From positions 1 to 32,292 of the IMG/VR virus record IMGVR_UViG_3300025652_000027: a stretch of DNA of 32,292 bases, one strand, 5' to 3'. This DNA is from a virus. The notes under the pieces are model-generated. The model was not told the origin of the DNA. It saw only the letters and a list, made by a program, of their open reading frames with translations, and searched no databases. Positions 128 through 32,292 of this stretch are shown in pieces; the stretch's first letter is position 1; every line of letters begins with the position of its first letter. Made by a program: the position numbers and the translations under genes.

Positions 128-464
128 TCTTACAGAAGAGCAAAAGAATGAGCTGATTCTGAAAGATAATATTAGTAGTGGAGATTGGGCAGAGGATATG
201 TTAGAGGCTGAGTGGAAAGATACTGCATATAAAAAATGGATGGGAGCTAACTCCGTATCGTATGATGACCTTGACTATGAGGACTTAGTATTAGATATGG
301 ATAAGATGGAGAGCAATGTTAAGCGTAGCATACACCTAAAGATTAATAACCATAAACAAGAGATTACCGATATGCTTAAATCACTTAGAGATGATGGGGT
401 GTACATAGGTAAGGTCTTTATTGATGCACTAACTAATGAAAAGAATAAACCTTTATCCGATTGA
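1..464 (+). CDS. ParB-like N-terminal domain protein, 3' part (gene continues from 32045)
   Basis: This is the downstream part of a gene that starts at 32045 and crosses the circular junction; joined, it encodes about 194 aa. The N-terminal part carries the ParB/Srx-type fold signature: HPNNPR near the start and CGNMRYRAC (bases about 57-84), the equivalent of the ParB GxxRxxA box. The C-terminal half is charged and unassigned. ParB-like domains of this kind occur in phages next to terminase and DNA-modification genes, where they may bind DNA or act as nucleases/CTPases. It sits between a second ParB-like gene and the hypermodification genes and overlaps the next gene by 29 bases. Family assignment is good; role is inferred. 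Confidence 0.8.
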   Translation, partial: EWMMQIRPIIVDEDFTILCGNMRYRACIDLGYKKVWTKQYVTLTEEQKNELILKDNISSGDWAEDMLEAEWKDTAYKKWMGANSVSYDDLDYEDLVLDMDKMESNVKRSIHLKINNHKQEITDMLKSLRDDGVYIGKVFIDALTNEKNKPLSD

Positions 465-1218
465 ACACAATGTTAAGATAGGTAATGTATGCGAATACAT
501 AGAGCCTAACATAACAGAAGATTGTTTGTTTTATGTTGATGATGAATTAGTAGGATTCTACATAAGAAACGTAAGTAAATATTCTCAAAAATTACCCTCG
601 TTTTTAGCAATAGCAGACCAAGAGTTCAGAACAAAGAGAGTGCCGAAAAGCACAATGAAGAGGGCATCCGGTTTACACGATGCTGATTCAGAGGTATTAC
701 AATATTCAACCATACTTGGAAGCGTAGCACCAAGACATCATATGAGGCGACCTTACGCTACAATTAGTTCCGTGCATCAAAAGAAGTCAGCAAGACCGTT
801 TATCAAGAGTATGATGCTTACCTGCTTAGAGGGGCAAAAGATAATGAAAGAGATAGCACCTGAGATATATAATAGGCAGATGCAGTTATTCTCTGATGTA
901 CAAGATAAATGGAAGTTTGCAAATATGTACACATCAACAATATCTAACTATAATATATCAGCACCTTATCATATTGATAATGCTAACATTAAAGGTTCGG
1001 TAAATATGATATTCACTAAGAGGAATAATAGTAAAGGTGGTTGCCTAACTATACCGGACTACAACATAACTATTGAGAGTTGTGATAATTCTATGATAGT
1101 ATATCCGGCTTGGAGAAACGTACACGGAGTAACTCCTATTATACCACTTAAAGATGGGGGTTATCGTAACTCACATATATTCTATCCACTTAAAGCATTC
1201 CTCAATGAGCATATTTGA
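436..1218 (+). CDS. 2-oxoglutarate/Fe(II) dioxygenase-like protein, possible TET/JBP-type base oxidase
   Basis: 260 aa. The C-terminal third shows the metal and cosubstrate pattern of the double-stranded beta-helix oxygenases: H179-x-D181, GGCLTIP at 201-207, H230 in VHGVTP, and R244 followed by N-S, which fits the usual HxD...H...R order and spacing. The N-terminal half (VPKSTMKR, MRRPYATISSVH) is unassigned. Phage TET/JBP enzymes hydroxylate the methyl group of thymine or 5-methylcytosine in DNA. No C5-cytosine methylase and no hydroxymethylase was found in this genome, so thymine would be the simpler substrate if the role is right. The next three genes look like later steps of the same pathway. 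Oxygenase fold likely; DNA as substrate is inferred from the neighbours. Confidence 0.62.
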   Translation: MKRINLYPIEHNVKIGNVCEYIEPNITEDCLFYVDDELVGFYIRNVSKYSQKLPSFLAIADQEFRTKRVPKSTMKRASGLHDADSEVLQYSTILGSVAPRHHMRRPYATISSVHQKKSARPFIKSMMLTCLEGQKIMKEIAPEIYNRQMQLFSDVQDKWKFANMYTSTISNYNISAPYHIDNANIKGSVNMIFTKRNNSKGGCLTIPDYNITIESCDNSMIVYPAWRNVHGVTPIIPLKDGGYRNSHIFYPLKAFLNEHI

Positions 1219-2191
1219 TGTTAAAAGTATTAACCGGAATATAGTACGTTGGGAGGACTATCTTTATAAACCTACACCGGTGGAACAGATAGGCGAGATA
1301 TGGTTTAAGAGGGAAGATATGTTTGCACCTTTAGGATATGATGGTGTGAACGGAAGTAAGCTAAGGCAATGTATATGGCTTGTAAATGATTGGGTAAAGA
1401 AGAAGAACATTAGGGGGGTGGTATCCGGTTCCGTAGTTGGTTCTCCACAACACCCTTTCATAGCATCTACTTGTAAGCATTACGGAATAGGATGCTTGAT
1501 AGCTACCGGCTCTAAGAACCATCAAGAACATTTAAATATGCAGATGGCACAAGAGCTTGGAGCTAAGTTCTATGTAGCTAAGATTGGTTATGCAAGAGCA
1601 TTACAGAGTATATCATTTAAGTTAGCTAAGCAGTTAGATAATCACGAGGTATTAGAAACGAATATAACAGTTGATGAAAGACTAAACCCTGCATATAGAA
1701 TAGAAGAGTTCCATAGGGTTGGTGCAGAGCAAGTAAAGAACATACCTAACAATATAGAAACGATTATCATTCCGTGTGGTAGTTGTAATTCTGTTGTATC
1801 TATATTATACGGAATACATTTATTCAAGCCGAAAGGACTTAAGAATATTGTGCTGATGGGCATAGGTAATAATGGTAGCTTCAACATAGATTATATACCA
1901 AGAAGATTGAGTATAATCGGAAAGGTCTTAGGTAAAGATGTACACTCTGATTTTAGCTTCAAGAATGGTAAATATAATATGGTGCATCACAATTTAAACG
2001 GCACCGGTTATTGCACATATTCTGATATTATGCCATACGATTATCACGGCTTAATATTCCATCCTCGGTATGAGGGAAAGTGTATGAATTACATACAAGA
2101 AAACAAAGAAAAGTTTAAGAAATATTGGAACAAAAATACCCTATTTTGGGTAGTAGGAAACAAGCCTATAGCTACAAAGCTATTCGTTTAA
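1205..2191 (+). CDS. PLP-dependent enzyme, tryptophan synthase beta/ACC deaminase-like fold
   Basis: 328 aa from ATG 1205, which overlaps the previous gene by 14 bases; an upstream ATG at 1154 would overlap by 65 and is less likely. The start WFKREDMF followed by VNGSKLRQ is the signature of fold-type II PLP enzymes, with K52 the likely Schiff-base lysine. CGSCNSVVS later in the protein fits the cofactor phosphate-binding loop. In thymidine hypermodification, PLP enzymes rework the amino acid attached to the base, for example by decarboxylation. The location between a dioxygenase and a transferase/kinase pair supports such a job; the actual reaction cannot be read from sequence. A metabolic amino-acid lyase is the alternative. 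Confidence 0.72.
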   Translation: MSIFDVKSINRNIVRWEDYLYKPTPVEQIGEIWFKREDMFAPLGYDGVNGSKLRQCIWLVNDWVKKKNIRGVVSGSVVGSPQHPFIASTCKHYGIGCLIATGSKNHQEHLNMQMAQELGAKFYVAKIGYARALQSISFKLAKQLDNHEVLETNITVDERLNPAYRIEEFHRVGAEQVKNIPNNIETIIIPCGSCNSVVSILYGIHLFKPKGLKNIVLMGIGNNGSFNIDYIPRRLSIIGKVLGKDVHSDFSFKNGKYNMVHHNLNGTGYCTYSDIMPYDYHGLIFHPRYEGKCMNYIQENKEKFKKYWNKNTLFWVVGNKPIATKLFV

Positions 2192-2255
2192 TTTAAGCTA
2201 CAAAAGAAGCTCTCTAAGGAACGAACTACCCTTTGTGGTATATAGTGTTAAGAAA
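2187..2255 (+). promoter_or_regulatory. Bipartite intergenic element, copy 1
   Basis: A 19-base block (TTTAATTTAAGCTACAAAA, 2187-2205) and a 16-base block (ATATAGTGTTAAGAAA, 2240-2255) are separated by 34 bases. Both blocks, at the same spacing, recur at 22718-22786. Each copy begins at the stop codon of the gene before it and precedes the start of the next gene. The spacer is not conserved base for base, although both spacers hold a CTTT. It may be a phage promoter or a regulator site; it does not match the host TAnnTTTG consensus well. Confidence 0.6.
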
Positions 2256-2276
2256 AGAAAGATAAGGAAAACACCT

Positions 2277-3407
2277 ATGGATATGAGTAATACAGAAGCA
2301 CTCTCAGAAAAGCAAGTCATTGGACGTTGGTCTGAAATTAACAAAGAAAATGAGGTCAAAAAGTTAGAGTACGGAATGGACTTTCGACTACCGATTTATC
2401 GTAGAGAAGTGTTCCTTAGATTTTATGAATTTCATCTGAAATATAACGCACACCCGGGAGCAGTTTACTACACATTTGATTACATATTTGATACGTTAGA
2501 ACTTACACAAGAACAAAGATTATGGTTCACTTTTATTAATGGATGTTCACAGAATGTAGTCAGCACATATATGATATTTATTCAGTTTCCTGACCTGCAA
2601 GATATTGATATGTCAGAGCTTAGAAAGTGGTTTAGAGAACACTACACTAAAATAGGTTGGGATACTGATAGACGTTATCACAAAAACGTATTCGAAGATT
2701 GTGTACAGAATTACATAGATGTATTAGGAGGCAGAACGCAAGAAGAGTTATTCTCAGAGTTATGCAATACAGATGATAAGTATAAGAACTTTGGTAGGGT
2801 GTGGTCTTTTGTAATGAACAAATTTTACACATTCGGCAGGTTAGCCACGTTCTCATATTTAGAATATCTTAGGATAGCCGGTCTTAATTTAGATTGTGAT
2901 AGCTTATTCATAGATAATATTACCGGAAGTAAGTCGCATAGGAATGGCTTATGTAAGGTCTTAGGAAGAGATGACTTAGATTGGCATAACAATATTGTAA
3001 AGTATTCTGAGAACACCCTTAAATGGCTTGAGAGAGAGGGTAAGAAGCTACTGCAAGATGCTAACGAAAGAATTAATCATAAAGACGTATCATATTTCAC
3101 ATTGGAATCTACTTTATGTTGTTACAAAGGATGGCATAGAAAGAATAGAAGATACCCTAATGTATACAATGATATGTTTAGAGATAGGATAGTATATGCA
3201 GAAAAGAAGTGGGGCATAAGATTAGATATATTTTGGGATTGCAGACAAGATTGTTTACCGGCTCATCTTCTGATAGAGAATAACCCTAATGATTACGGAA
3301 TCAAACCACAGAAACAAAATCACTATCGTAAGTACGGTGAAGTTATTATGATGGATAGGGAATGGGATTGCTTCGAGAATAAATATAACGAATACATAGA
3401 CAGATGA
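2277..3407 (+). CDS. Amino acid:DNA transferase-like protein (former aGPT-PPlase clade)
   Basis: 376 aa from ATG 2277. A GTG at 2235 would add 14 residues, but those bases belong to a conserved non-coding element, so the later ATG is preferred. The protein is largely helical and aromatic-rich; the stretch TFGRLATFSYLEYLR followed by GSKSHRNGLCKVLGRDDLDW looks like the conserved core of the phage aGPT-PPlase-2 family, later described as amino acid:DNA transferases in the hypermodified-thymidine phages ViI and M6. Those enzymes join an amino acid to 5-phosphomethyl-dU in DNA. The stop overlaps the kinase gene (ATGA), which fits a shared pathway. Family recognised from memory of the motif, without a profile search. 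Confidence 0.62.
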   Translation: MDMSNTEALSEKQVIGRWSEINKENEVKKLEYGMDFRLPIYRREVFLRFYEFHLKYNAHPGAVYYTFDYIFDTLELTQEQRLWFTFINGCSQNVVSTYMIFIQFPDLQDIDMSELRKWFREHYTKIGWDTDRRYHKNVFEDCVQNYIDVLGGRTQEELFSELCNTDDKYKNFGRVWSFVMNKFYTFGRLATFSYLEYLRIAGLNLDCDSLFIDNITGSKSHRNGLCKVLGRDDLDWHNNIVKYSENTLKWLEREGKKLLQDANERINHKDVSYFTLESTLCCYKGWHRKNRRYPNVYNDMFRDRIVYAEKKWGIRLDIFWDCRQDCLPAHLLIENNPNDYGIKPQKQNHYRKYGEVIMMDREWDCFENKYNEYIDR

Positions 3408-4247: not shown

Positions 4248-5547
4248 ACTATTTAAGAAGCAGTTAGAGTGCTTTAGATACCTTGAGGATGATGTTACTA
4301 CTGAGGTCTTATTTGGTGGTGGTGCAGGAGGTAGTAAAACCTTTACCGGTTGCCTATGGCAAATAAGTAGGAGGTTAAGATACCCGGGAACAAGGTCTGT
4401 AATAGGCAGGTCTAAATTAAAGAATCTTAAAGCCACTACACTAAACACATTCTTTGAGGTAGCACAAGAATATTGTGGACTCACTCCGGATGTTGATTTC
4501 AGATATAATGCATCTGATAGCACAATCACATTCTACAACAAATCAGTAATATACCTTAAAGACTTATTTCTATATCCATCAGACCCATTGTTTACTTCAT
4601 TAGGTGGGTTAGAGATTACGGATGCCTTTATAGATGAATCTGCTGAGGTAACAGAGAAAGCAGTAAACGTACTTAATAGTCGTATTAGATATAAGTTAGA
4701 TGAGTATAATCTGATACCTAAAACATTGCTCACTTGTAACCCATCAAAAGGGTGGTTGTATAGCAAGTATTATAAGCCATCATTAGCTAACGACTTACTA
4801 CCATATCAAAAGTTCGTTAAATCACTTGTAACGGATAATAAGGCTATATCTAAACACTACCTAAAACAATTAGAGAAGTTAGATAAGATAAGTAAAGAGA
4901 GGTTACTATTCGGTAATTGGGAATACGTAGATGATGATGCTTTATTATTTGAGTATAATAGCCTACAAGATATGTTTACTAATTCATATGTGCAGGGTGG
5001 TACTAAATATATTACCTGCGATGTAGCTCGGCTTGGAGCTGATAAGAGTGTGATTATATTATGGGATGGTCTTAGAGCTGAGAAGATTGAAAGTATAGAC
5101 AAAAACACTATACCGGAGATAATAGCCAAAATCGGTAATTTAAGAGCTGAACACAATATACCTAATAGTAAGATAGTGATTGACCAAGATGGTGTAGGGG
5201 GTGGTGTTGTAGATGCCTTTAGTGGGTGTGTAGGGTTCGTTAATGGAGGTAAGGCTCTTAAGAAAGAGAATTATGCTAATCTAAAAACACAATGCTATTT
5301 TAAGTTAGCTGAGTTAGTAAACGAGGGTAAGATATTTATAAAGGATAAGGCATACAAAGATGTTATCATAACTGAGCTTGAAGTTGTGAAGAGAGATAAG
5401 GTAGATAAGGATTCTCAGAAGTTAGCGATAGAGGGCAAAGATATACAGAAACAGAAGCTCGGTAGGAGTCCTGATTATGCAGATGCAATTATGATGAGGA
5501 TGTGGTTTGAGAGCTTCGGCTCGTATGGTGAGTATGCCATAATTTAA
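4228..5547 (+). CDS. terL: Terminase large subunit (packaging ATPase and nuclease)
   Basis: 439 aa from ATG 4228 (a TTG lies one codon earlier). The ATPase domain has Walker A GGGAGGSKT around residues 30-38 and a Walker B-like TDAFIDESAE with D136/E137. The RNase H-like nuclease domain has TCDVARLGADKS, then IVIDQDGVGGG, then GRSPDYADA near the C-terminus, giving three spaced acidic residues for two metal ions. It pumps DNA into the prohead and cuts the concatemer. Length and motif order are normal for the family. Confidence 0.96.
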   Translation: MKNPKIKLFKKQLECFRYLEDDVTTEVLFGGGAGGSKTFTGCLWQISRRLRYPGTRSVIGRSKLKNLKATTLNTFFEVAQEYCGLTPDVDFRYNASDSTITFYNKSVIYLKDLFLYPSDPLFTSLGGLEITDAFIDESAEVTEKAVNVLNSRIRYKLDEYNLIPKTLLTCNPSKGWLYSKYYKPSLANDLLPYQKFVKSLVTDNKAISKHYLKQLEKLDKISKERLLFGNWEYVDDDALLFEYNSLQDMFTNSYVQGGTKYITCDVARLGADKSVIILWDGLRAEKIESIDKNTIPEIIAKIGNLRAEHNIPNSKIVIDQDGVGGGVVDAFSGCVGFVNGGKALKKENYANLKTQCYFKLAELVNEGKIFIKDKAYKDVIITELEVVKRDKVDKDSQKLAIEGKDIQKQKLGRSPDYADAIMMRMWFESFGSYGEYAII

Positions 5548-6312: not shown

Positions 6313-7556
6313 TTACATACAACGGCATAATATCATACTTTAAAGAGTTCGCAGATAAGCACCTGCAAATTAATTCATTTACTCAAGGTTCGGCAGATAA
6401 GATTGACCTAAAGAAGATTAATGATTATCCGGTTCTGCATATTGATATTACCGGTACAAGCATACAAGAGAAAACGATTGTATTTAGTGTAGATGTTTAT
6501 ATCATAACGGCATCACAATCAGATGATGAAATAGAGAGGGTAGATGCTCTTTCAAGCACACTAATGATAATGCAAGATTTACGTGCTGAGTTCTACGAGG
6601 GTAAATATATTGTGCCTAAATTATTACTACTAAGAGGTAGTGAAGAATTAGACTGCAATCCTATCGAAGAAAGTTTTAATAATAGAGTGTATGGTTGGAG
6701 TACATCAATGAGCGTAACCGGTATTAACGAGGCTACAAGATGTTCTATTCCTTATCCATTAGAAACAAACTTATTAGAGCAATGGAATGGAGATGAATTC
6801 ATACCACCTTTTGATAGTCCTTTGTTCGGCGATTATTATTGGTATAGTGCTACTGAGCAGGTTCAAGGTAAATTAACATATAATGTACTTAATAATATTG
6901 TAGCCATAGCACCTATAAAGAGTTCTAATTGGCTAACAATTCCTGCAATAGTAACTGACGTTGGGGGTGGTAAGCCTATAAATTATAATCAAGAAAGTCA
7001 AGCTATTAGATTGCAAGGGGAGGGTGCAGATTATAGAATTACTGCATCAGTACAAACACCAACAGAAAGATATACATACGTAGCAGTTAAGCTCAAGAAT
7101 ATTAAATCATTAGATACTGAAAACACATCACTAATTCAAGTGCTTGGAGCAGGATTGACAGATGGAATACACGTATTTATAGGAAGTCCTACCGGTGTAG
7201 AAACGAGAAGAAATAAAATATGCTTAGCTAACAGAGATGAAACATTCGTTTTAGTAGGCGATAATATATCAGATGGTGGTAACGACTACATAAGAGAAGA
7301 AACACTCTCTATAGGCTTAGAAATAGGGGGAGATGATATAAATAGTATGGTAAAGGTGGTAATGAATGGTGAGGTGGTGTTATCATCACAAATACCAACG
7401 GCTCCATTAGACGTAATCTGCATAGGAGATAATGATAATAATACACAAGCAACGTGTTCATTTGATTTTCAAGAGTTATACTTGCATAGGCATACCGGAA
7501 TAGCCTCAAGATTAGATGATTTTATTAAGGTTGTAGATTGGTTAGATTACAGATAG
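6309..7556 (+). CDS. Tail completion-like protein with C-terminal lectin-like domain
   Basis: 415 aa. The first 150 residues (VFSVDVYIITASQSDDEIER and a helix around QDLRAEFYEGKY) look like the alpha/beta tail terminator proteins that sit at the head-proximal end of siphophage tails. From about residue 165 onward the protein is beta-rich with repeated short strands and ends in a helix-like DFIKVVDWLDYR, as in LamG/concanavalin-type domains. The fusion would place a carbohydrate-binding domain on the virion. Both assignments are inferred from composition and position. Confidence 0.5.
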   Translation: MITYNGIISYFKEFADKHLQINSFTQGSADKIDLKKINDYPVLHIDITGTSIQEKTIVFSVDVYIITASQSDDEIERVDALSSTLMIMQDLRAEFYEGKYIVPKLLLLRGSEELDCNPIEESFNNRVYGWSTSMSVTGINEATRCSIPYPLETNLLEQWNGDEFIPPFDSPLFGDYYWYSATEQVQGKLTYNVLNNIVAIAPIKSSNWLTIPAIVTDVGGGKPINYNQESQAIRLQGEGADYRITASVQTPTERYTYVAVKLKNIKSLDTENTSLIQVLGAGLTDGIHVFIGSPTGVETRRNKICLANRDETFVLVGDNISDGGNDYIREETLSIGLEIGGDDINSMVKVVMNGEVVLSSQIPTAPLDVICIGDNDNNTQATCSFDFQELYLHRHTGIASRLDDFIKVVDWLDYR

Positions 7557-24103: not shown

Positions 24104-24135
24104 TTTGTGGTTTCAAATATATCGTCTTATATTTG
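24104..24135 (+). promoter_or_regulatory. Early promoter of Bacteroidota type
   Basis: TTTG at 24104-24107, 20 bases, then TATATTTG at 24128-24135, an exact fit to the -33 TTTG and -7 TAnnTTTG elements used by the housekeeping sigma factor of Bacteroidota. Transcription would begin around 24140 and reach the ribozyme about 150 bases later. Confidence 0.82.
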
Positions 24136-24139
24136 CTTC

Positions 24140-24291
24140 AGTTCTTTGAAATACTGATTTACCCGATTCGCAAGAATATGCACCTAATTTTAGGCATATA
24201 AACGGCTGATAGTCAAGCGATTAGACTCGGAAATAGTGGTGTATTTCTCCCGTTTACGTTTCGGTTCAGTAAAAATCAGATTAGAAGAGAT
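24140..24291 (+). ncRNA. Structured 5' leader upstream of the ribozyme
   Basis: No coding capacity seen. A series of short hairpins can be drawn: ATTC-GCAA-GAAT with a GNRA loop (24166-24177), ATATG-CA-CCTA-ATTT-TAGG-CATAT (24176-24199), AGTC/GACT (24211-24227) and GAAATA/TATTTC (24230-24247). The first two overlap by two bases and may be alternatives. No known riboswitch was recognised. Confidence 0.45.
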
Positions 24292-24370
24292 AGTTAAAGT
24301 AATACTGATGAGTCCTCATAGGACGAAACACAACACACCGGCTTTATGCCGGTTGTGTCTATTACTAACT
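24292..24370 (+). ncRNA. Type I hammerhead self-cleaving ribozyme
   Basis: All conserved core parts are present. Stem I is GTAATA 24299-24304 with TATTAC 24360-24365, then a two-A bulge, then AGTTA 24292-24296 with TAACT 24366-24370. Core strand CTGATGA is 24305-24311. Stem II is GTCC/GGAC (24312-24315, 24321-24324) with loop TCATA. GAAA is 24325-24328. Stem III is ACACAA/TTGTGT (24328-24333, 24353-24358) plus CCGGC/GCCGG with loop TTTAT. Cleavage is predicted after C24359 in GTC. Open stem I makes it type I. The downstream product would be an mRNA starting 29 bases before ATG 24389. Hammerheads are known from phage-like gut sequences; activity here is inferred. Confidence 0.93.
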
Positions 24371-24388
24371 TATTAAAAAAACAAGATT

Positions 24389-24457
24389 ATGAAATCAAAA
24401 AGAAACATTATAAAAACAAAATGGGGTTCTATCAGTGTAGTTTATCCTACTAAGTAA
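24389..24457 (+). CDS. 22-aa peptide behind the ribozyme
   Basis: Very short and basic (starts MKSKRNIIKTKWG). The start is preceded by AAAAAAACAAGATT, nearly the same as AAAAAAACAGATT before the next gene, an A-rich context that suits initiation in this phylum. It is the first open frame after the predicted cleavage site. Could be a leader peptide or a real small protein; no family recognised. Confidence 0.5.
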   Translation: MKSKRNIIKTKWGSISVVYPTK

Positions 24458-24481
24458 ATTTAACAACTAAAAAAACAGATT

Positions 24482-24700
24482 ATGAACGCTACACAATTAT
24501 TACAAGAAATTCAAGATGCAAATTCTTTACTAACTTTATCAGCATTCGAAGTAGAAATTGAAAATTACGAAATAGATATATTTTTCTCACAAAGAATAAA
24601 AAAGTGGGTATTGTTTTTCGATGGCGAAAAGATTAAGGAATCTAAAAACTTAGAAACTTTAGTAAACAAATTGGTAGATATGAATGTATTAGGAGCATAA
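24482..24700 (+). CDS. Small acidic protein, unknown
   Basis: 72 aa; ATG 24482 follows an A-rich tract. Helix-strand-strand-helix layout suggested by NATQLLQEIQDAN, YEIDIFFSQRIKKWVLFF and LETLVNKLVDM. It is second in the transcript unit that follows the ribozyme. No family recognised; an anti-host early function is possible from position. Confidence 0.7.
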   Translation: MNATQLLQEIQDANSLLTLSAFEVEIENYEIDIFFSQRIKKWVLFFDGEKIKESKNLETLVNKLVDMNVLGA

Positions 24701-24720
24701 TGCACCTTTAACCTTAAGCA

Positions 24721-24778
24721 ACACCCTGCAACCTTTGTATATTACAGAGGTGTGCAGGGAGTGTCTATTACTAACTTA
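24721..24778 (+). promoter_or_regulatory. Ribozyme-like leader site 2 (hairpin plus GTGTCTATTACTAACTTA)
   Basis: Inverted repeat CCCTGCA (24724-24730) / TGCAGGG (24753-24759), then GTGTCTATTACTAACTTA at 24761-24778, the same bases as around the hammerhead cut. No CTGATGA core is present nearby. If cut after C24765 the mRNA would start 28 bases before ATG 24794. The loop also contains AACCTTTGTATATTA, weakly like a promoter. Confidence 0.7.
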
Positions 24779-24793
24779 AACAATAGCAAAGCT

Positions 24794-25192
24794 ATGAAAA
24801 ATTTTAAAACGAATACCAAAGACGCTAAGAAATTATTACAAACGATTAAAGCAGAGTTTATCTCGAAAGCTAAGAATGGTACAAACTTAAAAGGAGATTA
24901 CAACAGTGCAAAATTGAGTATAGAACAAATGAAACAACCATTGTGGTTTAACTTTATTGAATATGATGGTTCGAATGAATATTTGATTTTCTTTCAAAAT
25001 TCCTGCCAAGAATCTCATACAGATTTTAATGATTTAGTAAAAATGAAAAGCACCGGTAGATTATCGATGGGTTGCATTAGATTGAAATATACCGATGTTA
25101 GCTTAGCTGACCTTAATAATGGAGGCTACATTGTTCAAATGTCTAAGCAAATTACTTACGATGATTTGAATATGGATGCGATTGACCTTTAA
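24794..25192 (+). CDS. 132-aa early protein, unknown
   Basis: Start ATG 24794 is chosen over GTG 24752 because the upstream bases are the conserved leader. N-terminal helical part (NTKDAKKLLQTIKAEFISKA), then a beta-rich core (LWFNFIEYDGSNEYLIFF). The end (MSKQITYDDLNM) is acidic. No catalytic motif recognised. Sits just before ArdC, so an early host-takeover function is plausible but not shown. Confidence 0.75.
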   Translation: MKNFKTNTKDAKKLLQTIKAEFISKAKNGTNLKGDYNSAKLSIEQMKQPLWFNFIEYDGSNEYLIFFQNSCQESHTDFNDLVKMKSTGRLSMGCIRLKYTDVSLADLNNGGYIVQMSKQITYDDLNMDAIDL

Positions 25193-25196
25193 ATGA

Positions 25197-25235
25197 GGTG
25201 CCGGTTCCGACCGGCATCCGTGTCTATTACTAACT
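25197..25235 (+). promoter_or_regulatory. Ribozyme-like leader site 3
   Basis: A 9-bp hairpin GGTGCCGGT-TCCG-ACCGGCATC (25197-25218) is followed at once by GTGTCTATTACTAACT (25220-25235). A cut after C25224 would leave a 26-base leader before ATG 25251. No ribozyme core is seen. No T run follows the hairpin, so it is not a standard terminator. Confidence 0.7.
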
Positions 25236-25250
25236 AACAAATTATTTATT

Positions 25251-26180
25251 ATGAATGTTTACGAGATTATTACAGACAAAGTTGTTAAGGGATTAGAGAA
25301 GAAAGGTGCAGATTGGTTTAAGCCGTGGAAAGGTGGAAACGATTATCCACCTATGAGTTATGGCTCACGTACTGCATACAAAGGTATTAATTACTTTATG
25401 CTTAATTATGAGATGGGTGTTAATGGATATACATCACCGGTATTTATTACTTACAAACAGATGCAGGGTGCAGGAGGAGAGCTGAAGAAAGAATACACCG
25501 GTCATCAAGTTGTATATTGGGTTGTGAGTTATTCAGTAACGTGTGCTAATGGTAAAAAGAAATATTACCCTAACGAGAAAGCACTTAAGAAAGTAGGTAA
25601 GAGTGTACACGATAAGGATGTAGAAACGCACTTTAGTCCTCGTTACTATACAGTTTACAATTTAGATGATGTAGAGGGTGTAGAGGACTTCACACAAGCT
25701 GAGAAGAAAGAAGTTGTAGAGGGTACAGTATTCGAGAAGATTGACGATGCTCAGATTGTTTGGAATAACTATAAGAAAGCACCATCACTTAAACACGGAG
25801 GTACACGAGCATTCTATCAACCGGCTAAACATCACATACAGATGCCTATCCAAGATGACTTTATATCCTCTGATGATTACTACAAGGTATTGTTTCACGA
25901 GATGATTCACTCTACCGGTCATAAGAGTATTCTCAACCGGTTTACAGAGAACGCAGTAGAGTACAACGAGGGTAAGGAAGAATATTCATTCGAGGAACTT
26001 GTAGCTGAGTTAGGAGCGATGTTTTTAGTATCGGTTACCGGTATCGAGCCTAAGTCTGATAATAGAAATTCACAGACTTATATTAATGGTTGGATAAAGC
26101 ACTTGAAAGACAATCCTAAACATATCTTATTTGCTTCATCTAAATCACAGAAAGCAGTTGATTATATACTAACTAAATAG
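25251..26180 (+). CDS. ardC: ArdC-like antirestriction protein with zincin domain
   Basis: 309 aa. The N-terminal domain (residues about 1-140; WFKPWKGG, SYGSRTAYKGINYFML, FITYKQMQ) is the ssDNA-binding ArdC N-terminal family; the C-terminal part has HEMIHSTGH (216-224), a HExxHxxxH zinc site, and FEELVAELGA with the helper Glu. ArdC proteins protect incoming DNA from type I and II restriction. An early position directly behind the early promoter fits that job. Confidence 0.9.
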   Translation: MNVYEIITDKVVKGLEKKGADWFKPWKGGNDYPPMSYGSRTAYKGINYFMLNYEMGVNGYTSPVFITYKQMQGAGGELKKEYTGHQVVYWVVSYSVTCANGKKKYYPNEKALKKVGKSVHDKDVETHFSPRYYTVYNLDDVEGVEDFTQAEKKEVVEGTVFEKIDDAQIVWNNYKKAPSLKHGGTRAFYQPAKHHIQMPIQDDFISSDDYYKVLFHEMIHSTGHKSILNRFTENAVEYNEGKEEYSFEELVAELGAMFLVSVTGIEPKSDNRNSQTYINGWIKHLKDNPKHILFASSKSQKAVDYILTK

Positions 26181-26225
26181 AGGGTAGGTGCTTCGGCACC
26201 ACCCTTTGTGTCTATTACTAACTTA
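26181..26225 (+). promoter_or_regulatory. Ribozyme-like leader site 4
   Basis: Hairpin AGGGT-A-GGTGC-TTCG-GCACC-ACCCT (26181-26205) with a UUCG tetraloop, then GTGTCTATTACTAACTTA (26208-26225). A cut after C26212 would leave 25 bases before ATG 26238. No ribozyme core seen. Confidence 0.7.
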
Positions 26226-26237
26226 AATTAAATTATT

Positions 26238-26459
26238 ATGGCAAATATGTCTTATTGCAGGTTTGAAAATACATTAGCTGACCTGCGTGATTGCGAAGAA
26301 GCATTAGGAAATATTTATGATGAGGTAACAGAGATGTCCTCTTATGAGAAGAATGCATTACCTAAACTTATTGAACTATGTAAAAGTATCTCAGATAATT
26401 GGGATGTAGAAGAAGTACAAGATATTATTAACGAATCAGAAGAAGAAGATGAGCGATAA
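26238..26459 (+). CDS. Small conserved-type phage protein (MANMSYCRFENT start)
   Basis: 73 aa, acidic, helical. The start MANMSYCRFENTLADLRDC is of a kind I associate with small proteins of many Bacteroidota phages and hosts. Ends in a Glu/Asp-rich tail. Overlaps the next gene by 11 bases. Function unknown. Confidence 0.8.
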   Translation: MANMSYCRFENTLADLRDCEEALGNIYDEVTEMSSYEKNALPKLIELCKSISDNWDVEEVQDIINESEEEDER

Positions 26460-31083: not shown

Positions 31084-31496
31084 TATTTTCACCGGATGCA
31101 AAAGCAAGGTTAGATATATGCGAAGCGTGTAAACACTTCCGTAAAACTACTCGTACGTGTGGTACTGCTATCAAAGGTAATAAGGTTGGTAGTAAGAGAT
31201 TATGTGGATGCTTTATGGATATAAAGACTACATTAAAATTTGCCACGTGTCCTATGAGTAAGTGGGGTGCATTAGAGATGAGTAAAGATGATTACTTAGA
31301 GATTAAAGAACTACTAAGCCTAACTAAAGATAAAATATCATCAGAACAACAACAAGCCGTAAGGCATTATTTAGAGAAATATGCAGGTATGAGAGTTAAG
31401 CAAAGCTCTTGTACACCCTGCGTATTAAACTACCTACACAAGTTAAAAGAAATTAAAGTGCAATATGAAAGTAATCAAGGAAGTAGTCAAGGTTAA
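31080..31496 (+). CDS. Cys-rich probable zinc-binding protein
   Basis: 138 aa. CEACKHFRKTTRTCGT, then LCGCFM and FATCPMSKWG, is a set of Cys residues fitting one or two zinc sites; a later SCTPC may complete another. The rest is helical and charged. Starts in an ATGA overlap with the sigma gene, so a partnership in transcription control is possible, but position is the only hint. Confidence 0.72.
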   Translation: MIFSPDAKARLDICEACKHFRKTTRTCGTAIKGNKVGSKRLCGCFMDIKTTLKFATCPMSKWGALEMSKDDYLEIKELLSLTKDKISSEQQQAVRHYLEKYAGMRVKQSSCTPCVLNYLHKLKEIKVQYESNQGSSQG

Positions 31497-32052
31497 AGAC
31501 CTAAAAGAATTAGGTAAGAATCCTCGTAGAATATCTGACCGAAAACTTAAGCAATTAACTAAGTCATTAGATGGCTTTAATCAGATGCTTGATATTAACG
31601 AAATAGTTATTGATGAGGGTAACAATATCTTAGGTGGTAATCAACGATTTAAAGCTTTAAAAAAGCTGAAAGAGAAAGAGGTAGTTGTACTTAGGGTAAC
31701 CGGTCTTGAAGATGATAAGAAAGATGAGTTTACAATCAAAGACAATATTCATTATGGTATATGGGATTGGGATGTGTTAGCTAATACACACGACCCGAAG
31801 ATGCTTGATGAGTACGGACTAAGCGTATGGCAACCATCTGATGGGAACGATGAAGTAGAAGAGGTACAAACTACTACACAAGTTGATGAAGTGGCAGGAG
31901 AAGGCACCGGAGAGCTTGAAGAAAAGTGTGTTGTAGTAATTGACTTTTACTCGAATGATTATGATTCTGCTAAGCTATTAATAGATGAGATGCAGGATAA
32001 ACAGATAGACACGATATTATATAACCATTTAAAAACTATTTGCGATGCTTAG
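31465..32052 (+). CDS. ParB-like domain protein (first of two)
   Basis: 195 aa. LKELGKNPRRISDRKLKQLT and NNILGGNQRFKALKKL give the ParB/Srx N-terminal fold, with GGNQRFKAL as the G-x-x-R-x-x-A-type box. A linker of Glu/Thr/Val and a small C-terminal alpha/beta segment (CVVVIDFYSNDYDSAKLL) follow. Overlaps both neighbours (32 and 8 bases). Phage ParB-like proteins may be DNA-binding nucleases or modification accessories. Confidence 0.8.
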   Translation: MKVIKEVVKVKDLKELGKNPRRISDRKLKQLTKSLDGFNQMLDINEIVIDEGNNILGGNQRFKALKKLKEKEVVVLRVTGLEDDKKDEFTIKDNIHYGIWDWDVLANTHDPKMLDEYGLSVWQPSDGNDEVEEVQTTTQVDEVAGEGTGELEEKCVVVIDFYSNDYDSAKLLIDEMQDKQIDTILYNHLKTICDA

Positions 32053-32292
32053 AGAAGAAGTTGAAGCTATAAAGGTACAAGCAGCAAAGCTTAAGCCACA
32101 CCCAAACAATCCGCGTTATATAGATGAGCATAAATATTATGAGCTAAAAGAAAGCATACAAGAGTCTGAGTGGATGATGCAGATTAGACCTATAATAGTA
32201 GATGAAGATTTCACTATACTTTGTGGTAATATGAGATACCGAGCTTGTATTGATTTAGGTTATAAGAAAGTTTGGACTAAGCAATATGTTAC
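32045..32292 (+). CDS. ParB-like domain protein (second), 5' part running into the junction
   Basis: ATG 32045 overlaps the first ParB-like gene by 8 bases. HPNNPRYIDEHKYYELKESI is the N-terminal ParB pattern. The frame continues without a break into bases 1-464 when the ends are joined, giving about 194 aa. Its C-terminal portion is described at 1-464. Confidence 0.82.
   Translation, partial: MLREEVEAIKVQAAKLKPHPNNPRYIDEHKYYELKESIQESEWMMQIRPIIVDEDFTILCGNMRYRACIDLGYKKVWTKQYV
32166..32292. repeat. Right copy of the 127-bp terminal direct repeat
   Basis: Identical to 1-127. With this copy removed the genome is 32,165 bp and circularly closed. Confidence 0.93.

Follow-up and report, generated by a model that had tools for sequence, protein, structure and literature searches.

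Why should a phage place a self-cleaving ribozyme at the head of its early operon? The question is raised by a virus record of 32,292 bases, which was analyzed at its full length and is called the window below. An earlier note on this DNA had described a hammerhead ribozyme between a Bacteroidota promoter and the first early gene, and had proposed that self-cleavage trims the early mRNA and removes a structured leader of 220 bases.

The window and its hammerhead

The window carries 127-base direct terminal repeats and is therefore probably the complete genome of a phage, assembled as a circle. It encodes an ADDT-type gene, a terminase, and a portal, the last of which matches Nonlabens and Bacteroides phages. 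The genes at 436-3407 include a 2OG oxygenase-like protein (Tet_JBP, below cut-off), a PALP-like enzyme (below cut-off), and an ADDT / thymine pyrophosphorylase-like protein, and look like a thymidine hypermodification cluster. A ParB-like gene ends the record (31465-32292), and an apparent second ParB-like frame (9-464) crosses the terminal-repeat junction of the circular genome. The promoter ahead of the hammerhead agrees with the Bacteroidota consensus in both its TTG and its TATATTTG element, as judged by eye, and would place the transcription start at about 24141. A sigma-70 promoter scan found no plus-strand site near 24130, which is expected for a Bacteroidota-type promoter, and relatives of the window phage also have a TATATTTG-type motif 3′ of their exonuclease gene.

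Inspection of the sequence located every hammerhead element at the positions previously described (Table 1). The elements are those of type I: C3UGANGA9, G12AAA15.1, U16.1 followed by H17, stems I, II, and III, and an open stem I. The AA bulge in stem I and the UCAUA loop of stem II, between which a contact might form, are present as well. A strict motif search, requiring at least 4 bp in stem II, 5 bp in stem III, and 6 bp in stem I, found the motif once in the window and never in 100 dinucleotide-shuffled windows (both strands). These features support a complete type I hammerhead heading the early operon, whose cleavage would set a 5′ end at 24360. The Rfam search that had been proposed as a check gave no match at the gathering threshold, but the motif is nonetheless present. 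Below the threshold, the best scores were 31.7 bits for RAGATH-1-hammerhead (gathering 56.3, E 0.0021) and 19.8 bits for Hammerhead_3. The miss is probably explained by the 4-nt bulge and the inner hairpin of stem III. Eight relatives also gave no Rfam match at the gathering threshold, a blastn search of the window leader against annotated phages returned nothing, and the matches to short ribozyme queries were all due to chance or to the generic core. As a hammerhead the element is ordinary; its apparent use is unusual.

Table 1 Features of the window and examples of the clade-B leader. Cuts are predicted.
Feature	Position	Strand	Basis or remark
Promoter, Bacteroidota-type	24105..24135	+	TTG 24105-24107; TATATTTG 24128-24135
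Folded leader domain 5′ of ribozyme	24141..24289	+	Closed independent domain in MFE fold of 5′ product
Ribozyme 5′ arm, stem I, AGTTA-AA-GTAATA	24292..24304	+	Pairs with TATTACTAACT at all four sites
Distal stem I AGTTA	24292-24296	+	
Bulge AA	24297-24298	+	
Stem I GTAATA	24299-24304	+	
Catalytic core CTGATGA/stem II/GAAA	24305..24328	+	Consensus match; sole complete core in window
CTGATGA	24305-24311	+	
Stem II GTCC/GGAC	24312-24315/24321-24324	+	Loop TCATA
GAAA	24325-24328	+	G12 = 24325
Ribozyme 3′ arm ACAC, stem III	24328..24331	+	Pairs with GTGT at all four sites
3′ hairpin ACACACCGGC-TTTAT-GCCGG-T-TGTGT	24333..24358	+	MFE fold, pairing probabilities
Cis cleavage site GTGTC^TATTACTAACT	24355..24370	+	Cut 24359/24360; ATG 29 nt past cut
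GTGTC of cis site	24355-24359	+	
Stem I partner TATTAC TAACT	24360-24370	+	
Early genes with sites at their junctions	24390..26459	+	
Small early ORF	from 24389	+	
Early ORF	24482-24700	+	
Hairpin of site 2	24724-24759	+	Site 2 whole: 24724..24776
Core-less site 2, GTGTC^TATTACTAACT	24761-24776	+	Cut 24765/24766; ATG 28 nt past cut
Early ORF	ATG ~24794 to 25192	+	
Hairpin of site 3	25199-25216	+	Site 3 whole: 25199..25235
Core-less site 3, GTGTC^TATTACTAACT	25220-25235	+	Cut 25224/25225; ArdC-like ATG 26 nt past cut
ArdC-like gene	25251-26180	+	
Hairpin of site 4, UUCG loop	26182-26204	+	Site 4 whole: 26182..26223
Core-less site 4, GTGTC^TATTACTAACT	26208-26223	+	Cut 26212/26213; ATG 25 nt past cut
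Early ORF	26238-26459	+	
Clade-B leader, L104	9176-9309		
Clade-B leader, L141	12354-12486		
Clade-B leader, L137	10043-10175	-	

Core-less sites at gene junctions

Comparison of the window with itself revealed what the earlier note, correct about the hammerhead, had omitted: three core-less downstream copies of the substrate strand. The sequence GTGTCTATTACTAACT occurs four times, at 24355, 24761, 25220, and 26208, with the catalytic core at the first position only, and no other 16-mer occurs four times in the window. All four copies lie on the plus strand at gene junctions, 3′ of hairpins that are unlike one another, and 25-29 nt (counted from the cut) 5′ of an ATG. The 16 nucleotides consist of GUGU (stem III), C17, UAUUAC (stem I), and UAACU (stem I past the bulge), and the identity among the copies ends exactly at both borders of the ribozyme complement. 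The downstream copies are complementary to the ribozyme arms, as substrate strands would be, they lie in RNA expected to be transcribed, and they have no core of their own: the window contains one core and four sites. The gene immediately 3′ of one core-less site encodes an ArdC-type anti-restriction protein (25251-26180).

Elsewhere in the viral contigs, the 16-mer was found once each in nine other contigs, none with a core nearby, and a pattern combining the window arm with GAAACAC was not found. None of 80 relatives collected by the exonuclease gene of the window has a hammerhead, and none of these repeats was found in the 28 relatives examined with several kb of downstream sequence. In the relatives' leaders that we inspected, the first ATG lies close behind the promoter and no leader resembles that of the window. 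The window is the sole member of its lineage found with ribozyme and sites. Among these phages, ribozyme, leader, and sites are present or absent as a set.

Survey of other hammerheads

Starting from 120 viral stretches in which a strict hammerhead core is present, we counted core-less places complementary to the arms of each ribozyme, defined by 4 bp of stem III, C17, and 6 bp of stem I, with G-U allowed. Core-less sites above the antisense background were found in L026 (11), L104 (5), and the window (3), and the remaining stretches, when pooled, were at the antisense background. The stem I arm GTAATA is also present in L036, L037, L161, L165, L174, L182, and L282-L284, with no core-less sites in the DNA searched except one chance-like match in L161. 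Most of these phages have a good stem III in cis, and the arm alone thus does not yield repeats. L150 (14132-14346) has a weak stem III with an inner hairpin like that of the window, and its contig ends right after the ribozyme; its near relative L283 has the same arm, a perfect stem III in cis, and no core-less sites. The weak stem III predicts that L150-like phages carry core-less GTGTCTATTACTA sites downstream. No trans-type match was found in the genome contigs searched. A different arrangement is seen in L161 (2297-8544), L044 (reverse strand), and L033 (1047-3320), with between five and a dozen complete hammerheads, or roughly one at each gene junction.

A second phage group with one core and many sites

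Further scans expanded the finding to about 20 contigs of a group, here called clade B, that is unrelated to the window phage. Clade B consists of tailed phages (terminase large subunit phrog_38, portal phrog_1216), which we read as podovirus-like, and their genes have Shine-Dalgarno leaders. Exactly one core was found in each of the six whole records, at the operon head, together with 6-11 sites per record; a seventh record has a run of N where the core belongs. Nearly all sites lie in one operon and on one strand, the last of them more than 4 kb from the ribozyme, and in the three operons measured the predicted cut falls 22-26 nt 5′ of the ATG at nearly every gene. The arm GCTATA is present in all 18 clade-B ribozymes, which have six stem II sequences among them, and 227 other hammerheads have 67 different arms. 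Such an invariant arm is expected of an RNA serving many sites. In L135, the ribozyme's own stem III has only 3 bp, and other sites of the same contig offer 4 bp. The clade-B members tested are also missed by Rfam, so that the lack of an Rfam match is misleading as an argument against the window hammerhead.

Paired core-less sites bracket non-coding stretches of about 115-125 nt in L026 (reverse strand 6620-6743) and L135 (reverse strand 4434-4548), which would be excised as separate small RNAs.

Other phages with many complete hammerheads at gene junctions (PMC3088659) bring up the idea that the core-less sites are decayed hammerheads whose cores have been lost. We reject this as extremely improbable, because there is no CTGATGA-to-GAAA core 5′ of the core-less sites, the sites themselves remain perfect in spite of the missing core, and the arm is invariant.

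Site variation and the ribozyme arm

Exchanging the arms between the two groups showed that each group's sites match its own ribozyme. Across 12 clade-B loci, the clade-B arm found 92 sense and no antisense sites and the window arm found none; in the window, its own arm found 4 sites (antisense strand: 1) and the clade-B arm none. Only two independent arm types are known so far.

At stem I, the 98 distinct core-less clade-B sites read TATGGC in 41 cases, TGTAGC in 34, and TATAGC in 23; these counts depend on loci fetched with the pattern TRTRGC, although further sites of those contigs were counted independently of the pattern. All 75 A-to-G changes are opposite a U of the arm, where G-U pairing is allowed, and no T-to-C change opposite an A was seen. 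No site has both G-U pairs, against 14.2 expected (Fisher p 2.6e-11, a nominal value, as the sites come from related phages and are not fully independent observations), and none of 5000 within-contig permutations reproduced this absence. In six additional sites, a single change disrupts the last pair or a different one (TATAGA, TGTAGA, TATATC, TATAGG). Position 17 is C in 92 of the 98 sites, A in 3, U in 3, and never G; an earlier unrestricted count allowing G17 had found G only at places without hairpin and leader. Site variation therefore keeps the pairing with the ribozyme: between groups, other blocks go with other arms, and within the group the changes are limited to G-U.

This pattern bears on whether a protein, such as a phage endoribonuclease or an RNA polymerase at its promoter, recognizes the sites while the hammerhead merely shares their sequence. 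A short, strictly conserved block before every gene does resemble a promoter or endonuclease site, and CTATAG is faintly like T7-type promoters. However, the two phage groups have different blocks that each match their own ribozyme arm, positions -2 to -6 upstream of the clade-B sites show no conservation, and position 17 follows the hammerhead H rule. We consider protein recognition very unlikely, and on the same three grounds we reject a T7-type promoter.

The clade-B block also has a second pairing partner. In 82 of the 98 sites, the stem I strand can pair with bases just past the Shine-Dalgarno sequence, forming a leader hairpin with the Shine-Dalgarno sequence in its loop, and its changes are compensated (TATAGC..GGCTAT, TGTAGC..GGCTAC, TATGGC..GGCCAT). 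This hairpin is real and accounts for part of the block conservation. It therefore lends some weight to the view that the hammerhead acts only in cis and was built around one copy of a block kept for translation, mRNA stability, or gene-boundary recombination; genes also appear to be shuffled between clade-B sites. The hairpin leaves several observations unexplained, though. GTGTC is kept although it lies outside the hairpin, and operon-end sites without Shine-Dalgarno sequence or leader hairpin keep GTGTCT(A/G)TAGC. The variation tracks pairing with the ribozyme arm rather than hairpin compensation, as the missing T-to-C changes indicate. No comparable leader hairpin was seen in the window, yet the block there stops exactly at the ribozyme complement, and the block was not found in the ribozyme-free relatives of the window phage examined for it. 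A hammerhead acting only in cis thus appears unlikely to us. After cleavage, the clade-B leader hairpin could instead pull the product off the ribozyme.

Predicted structures and proposed mechanism

In the MFE fold of 24285-24376 (z -3.75), stems I and II form, but the 3′ strand of stem III pairs with a second ACACA (24333-24337) beside the hairpin and not with the ACAC of the core. The leader of the window as a whole has a z of -1.86. In the predicted 5′ product, most of the arm sequence is unpaired, both in the window and in many clade-B members, and the product's own GUGU is held in the 3′ hairpin; energy models suggest that the arms are largely free because the second ACACA can hold this GUGU. 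For several clade-B products, the models predict partial pairing of the arm. Cofolding gave the hammerhead junction with sites 2 and 4; with site 3, stem III of the model was not obtained. We note that the GUGU of site 2 is predicted to be locally paired in its context, that stem III in trans has just 4 bp, and that the product's own GUGU competes.

Clade-B ribozymes are directly preceded by a conserved leader of 133-143 nt with 27 modeled pairs, and 13 pairs of leader and ribozyme show two-sided changes. Rfam holds no family for this leader. Four clade-B members (L134, L026, L135, and L171) have a second leader type. Searching with a covariance model of the clade-B leader recovers all clade-B leaders of the first type but neither the second type nor the leader of the window, which shows that the leaders are unlike; no homology was found between the clade-B and window leaders.

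We propose the following mechanism. Transcription would start near 24141, and the ribozyme would cut its own adjoining site at 24359/24360, freeing a 5′ RNA of about 220 nt that comprises the folded leader, the catalytic strand, and the 3′ hairpin. The freed arms, AGUUA-AA-GUAAUA for stem I and ACAC for stem III, would then pair with the three core-less GUGUC^UAUUACUAACU copies, and the ribozyme would cut each downstream gene junction after C17, possibly turning over many sites. Each gene unit would begin with a 5′-OH leader of 25-29 nt and end with a hairpin and GUGUC bearing a 2′,3′-cyclic phosphate. Read in this way, the first cut may serve to release the ribozyme rather than to trim the mRNA. 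Trimming as the purpose, as the earlier note would have it, does not fit the threefold recurrence of the 3′ cleavage strand at gene junctions, nor an unrelated phage group that pairs one core with up to 11 such sites. The supposedly discarded leader is more likely the product itself, with its folded 5′ domain, largely unpaired arms, and 3′ hairpin.

On the sequence evidence, we believe that one hammerhead probably processes the whole early transcript by cutting core-less sites. Such cutting may be confined to sites within the same transcript molecule, as nearly all sites are downstream in the ribozyme's own operon and local concentration would favor it. The first cut, however, parts the ribozyme from the remaining transcript, in many members little pairing is predicted for the product arms, and the last clade-B sites are more than 4 kb away. 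We regard this confinement to one molecule as a minor possibility, and lean, somewhat cautiously, towards a true intermolecular multi-site RNA enzyme that exists in two or more unrelated phage groups, each with its own arms.

Comparison with known systems

Small nucleolytic ribozymes are taught as one-shot self-cutters, and to our knowledge small RNA cutters have until now been thought to cut only themselves in nature. If our proposal is true, the phage hammerhead would be a natural counterexample and, given intermolecular action, the first small nucleolytic ribozyme in nature known to target other molecules. It would also explain the trimming of early mRNA by a phage, and would represent a compact form of operon processing in which every gene carries a tag of 16 nt and a single RNA enzyme is shared. 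The proposal makes sharp predictions, with named cut positions and compensatory arm swaps. We found no report of a natural trans-acting hammerhead, or of one core with many core-less sites, in a search that had preprints and most subscription papers outside its scope.

The best Rfam match, RAGATH-1-hammerhead (RF03152), shares with the window the CUGAUGAG core and an A-rich stretch 5′ of stem I. The window scores far under the gathering threshold, however, its stem III is bulged and has an inner hairpin, and the repeated sites are absent from the family. The discontinuous hammerhead of the mammalian Clec2 3′ UTR resembles our case in that ribozyme and substrate strands are far apart, but, as far as it is described in PMC6155905, it is a single long-range cis pair of type III with one site. 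Artificial trans-acting hammerheads of the Uhlenbeck type (PMC6155905) are likewise two-armed ribozymes that cut a separate substrate after NUH, but they are man-made.

Closest in setting are the phage hammerheads of Perreault et al. 2011 (PMC3088659). Several complete hammerheads flank phage genes, transcript processing was proposed for them, and several prophage hammerheads were active in vitro and in E. coli. The clustered prophage hammerheads lie at gene junctions of phage operons, as our sites do, and were suggested to turn long transcripts into single-gene mRNAs; they have a complete hammerhead per cut site, whereas here one core faces many core-less strands. HHphage of haloviruses HF1/HF2 is, like the window ribozyme, a single hammerhead just 5′ of the first gene of an early polycistronic transcript, and the 5′ end of that transcript has been mapped to within 3 nt of the cut site. 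It differs from the window ribozyme in its variant core and in that no core-less targets were reported there (PMC3088659).
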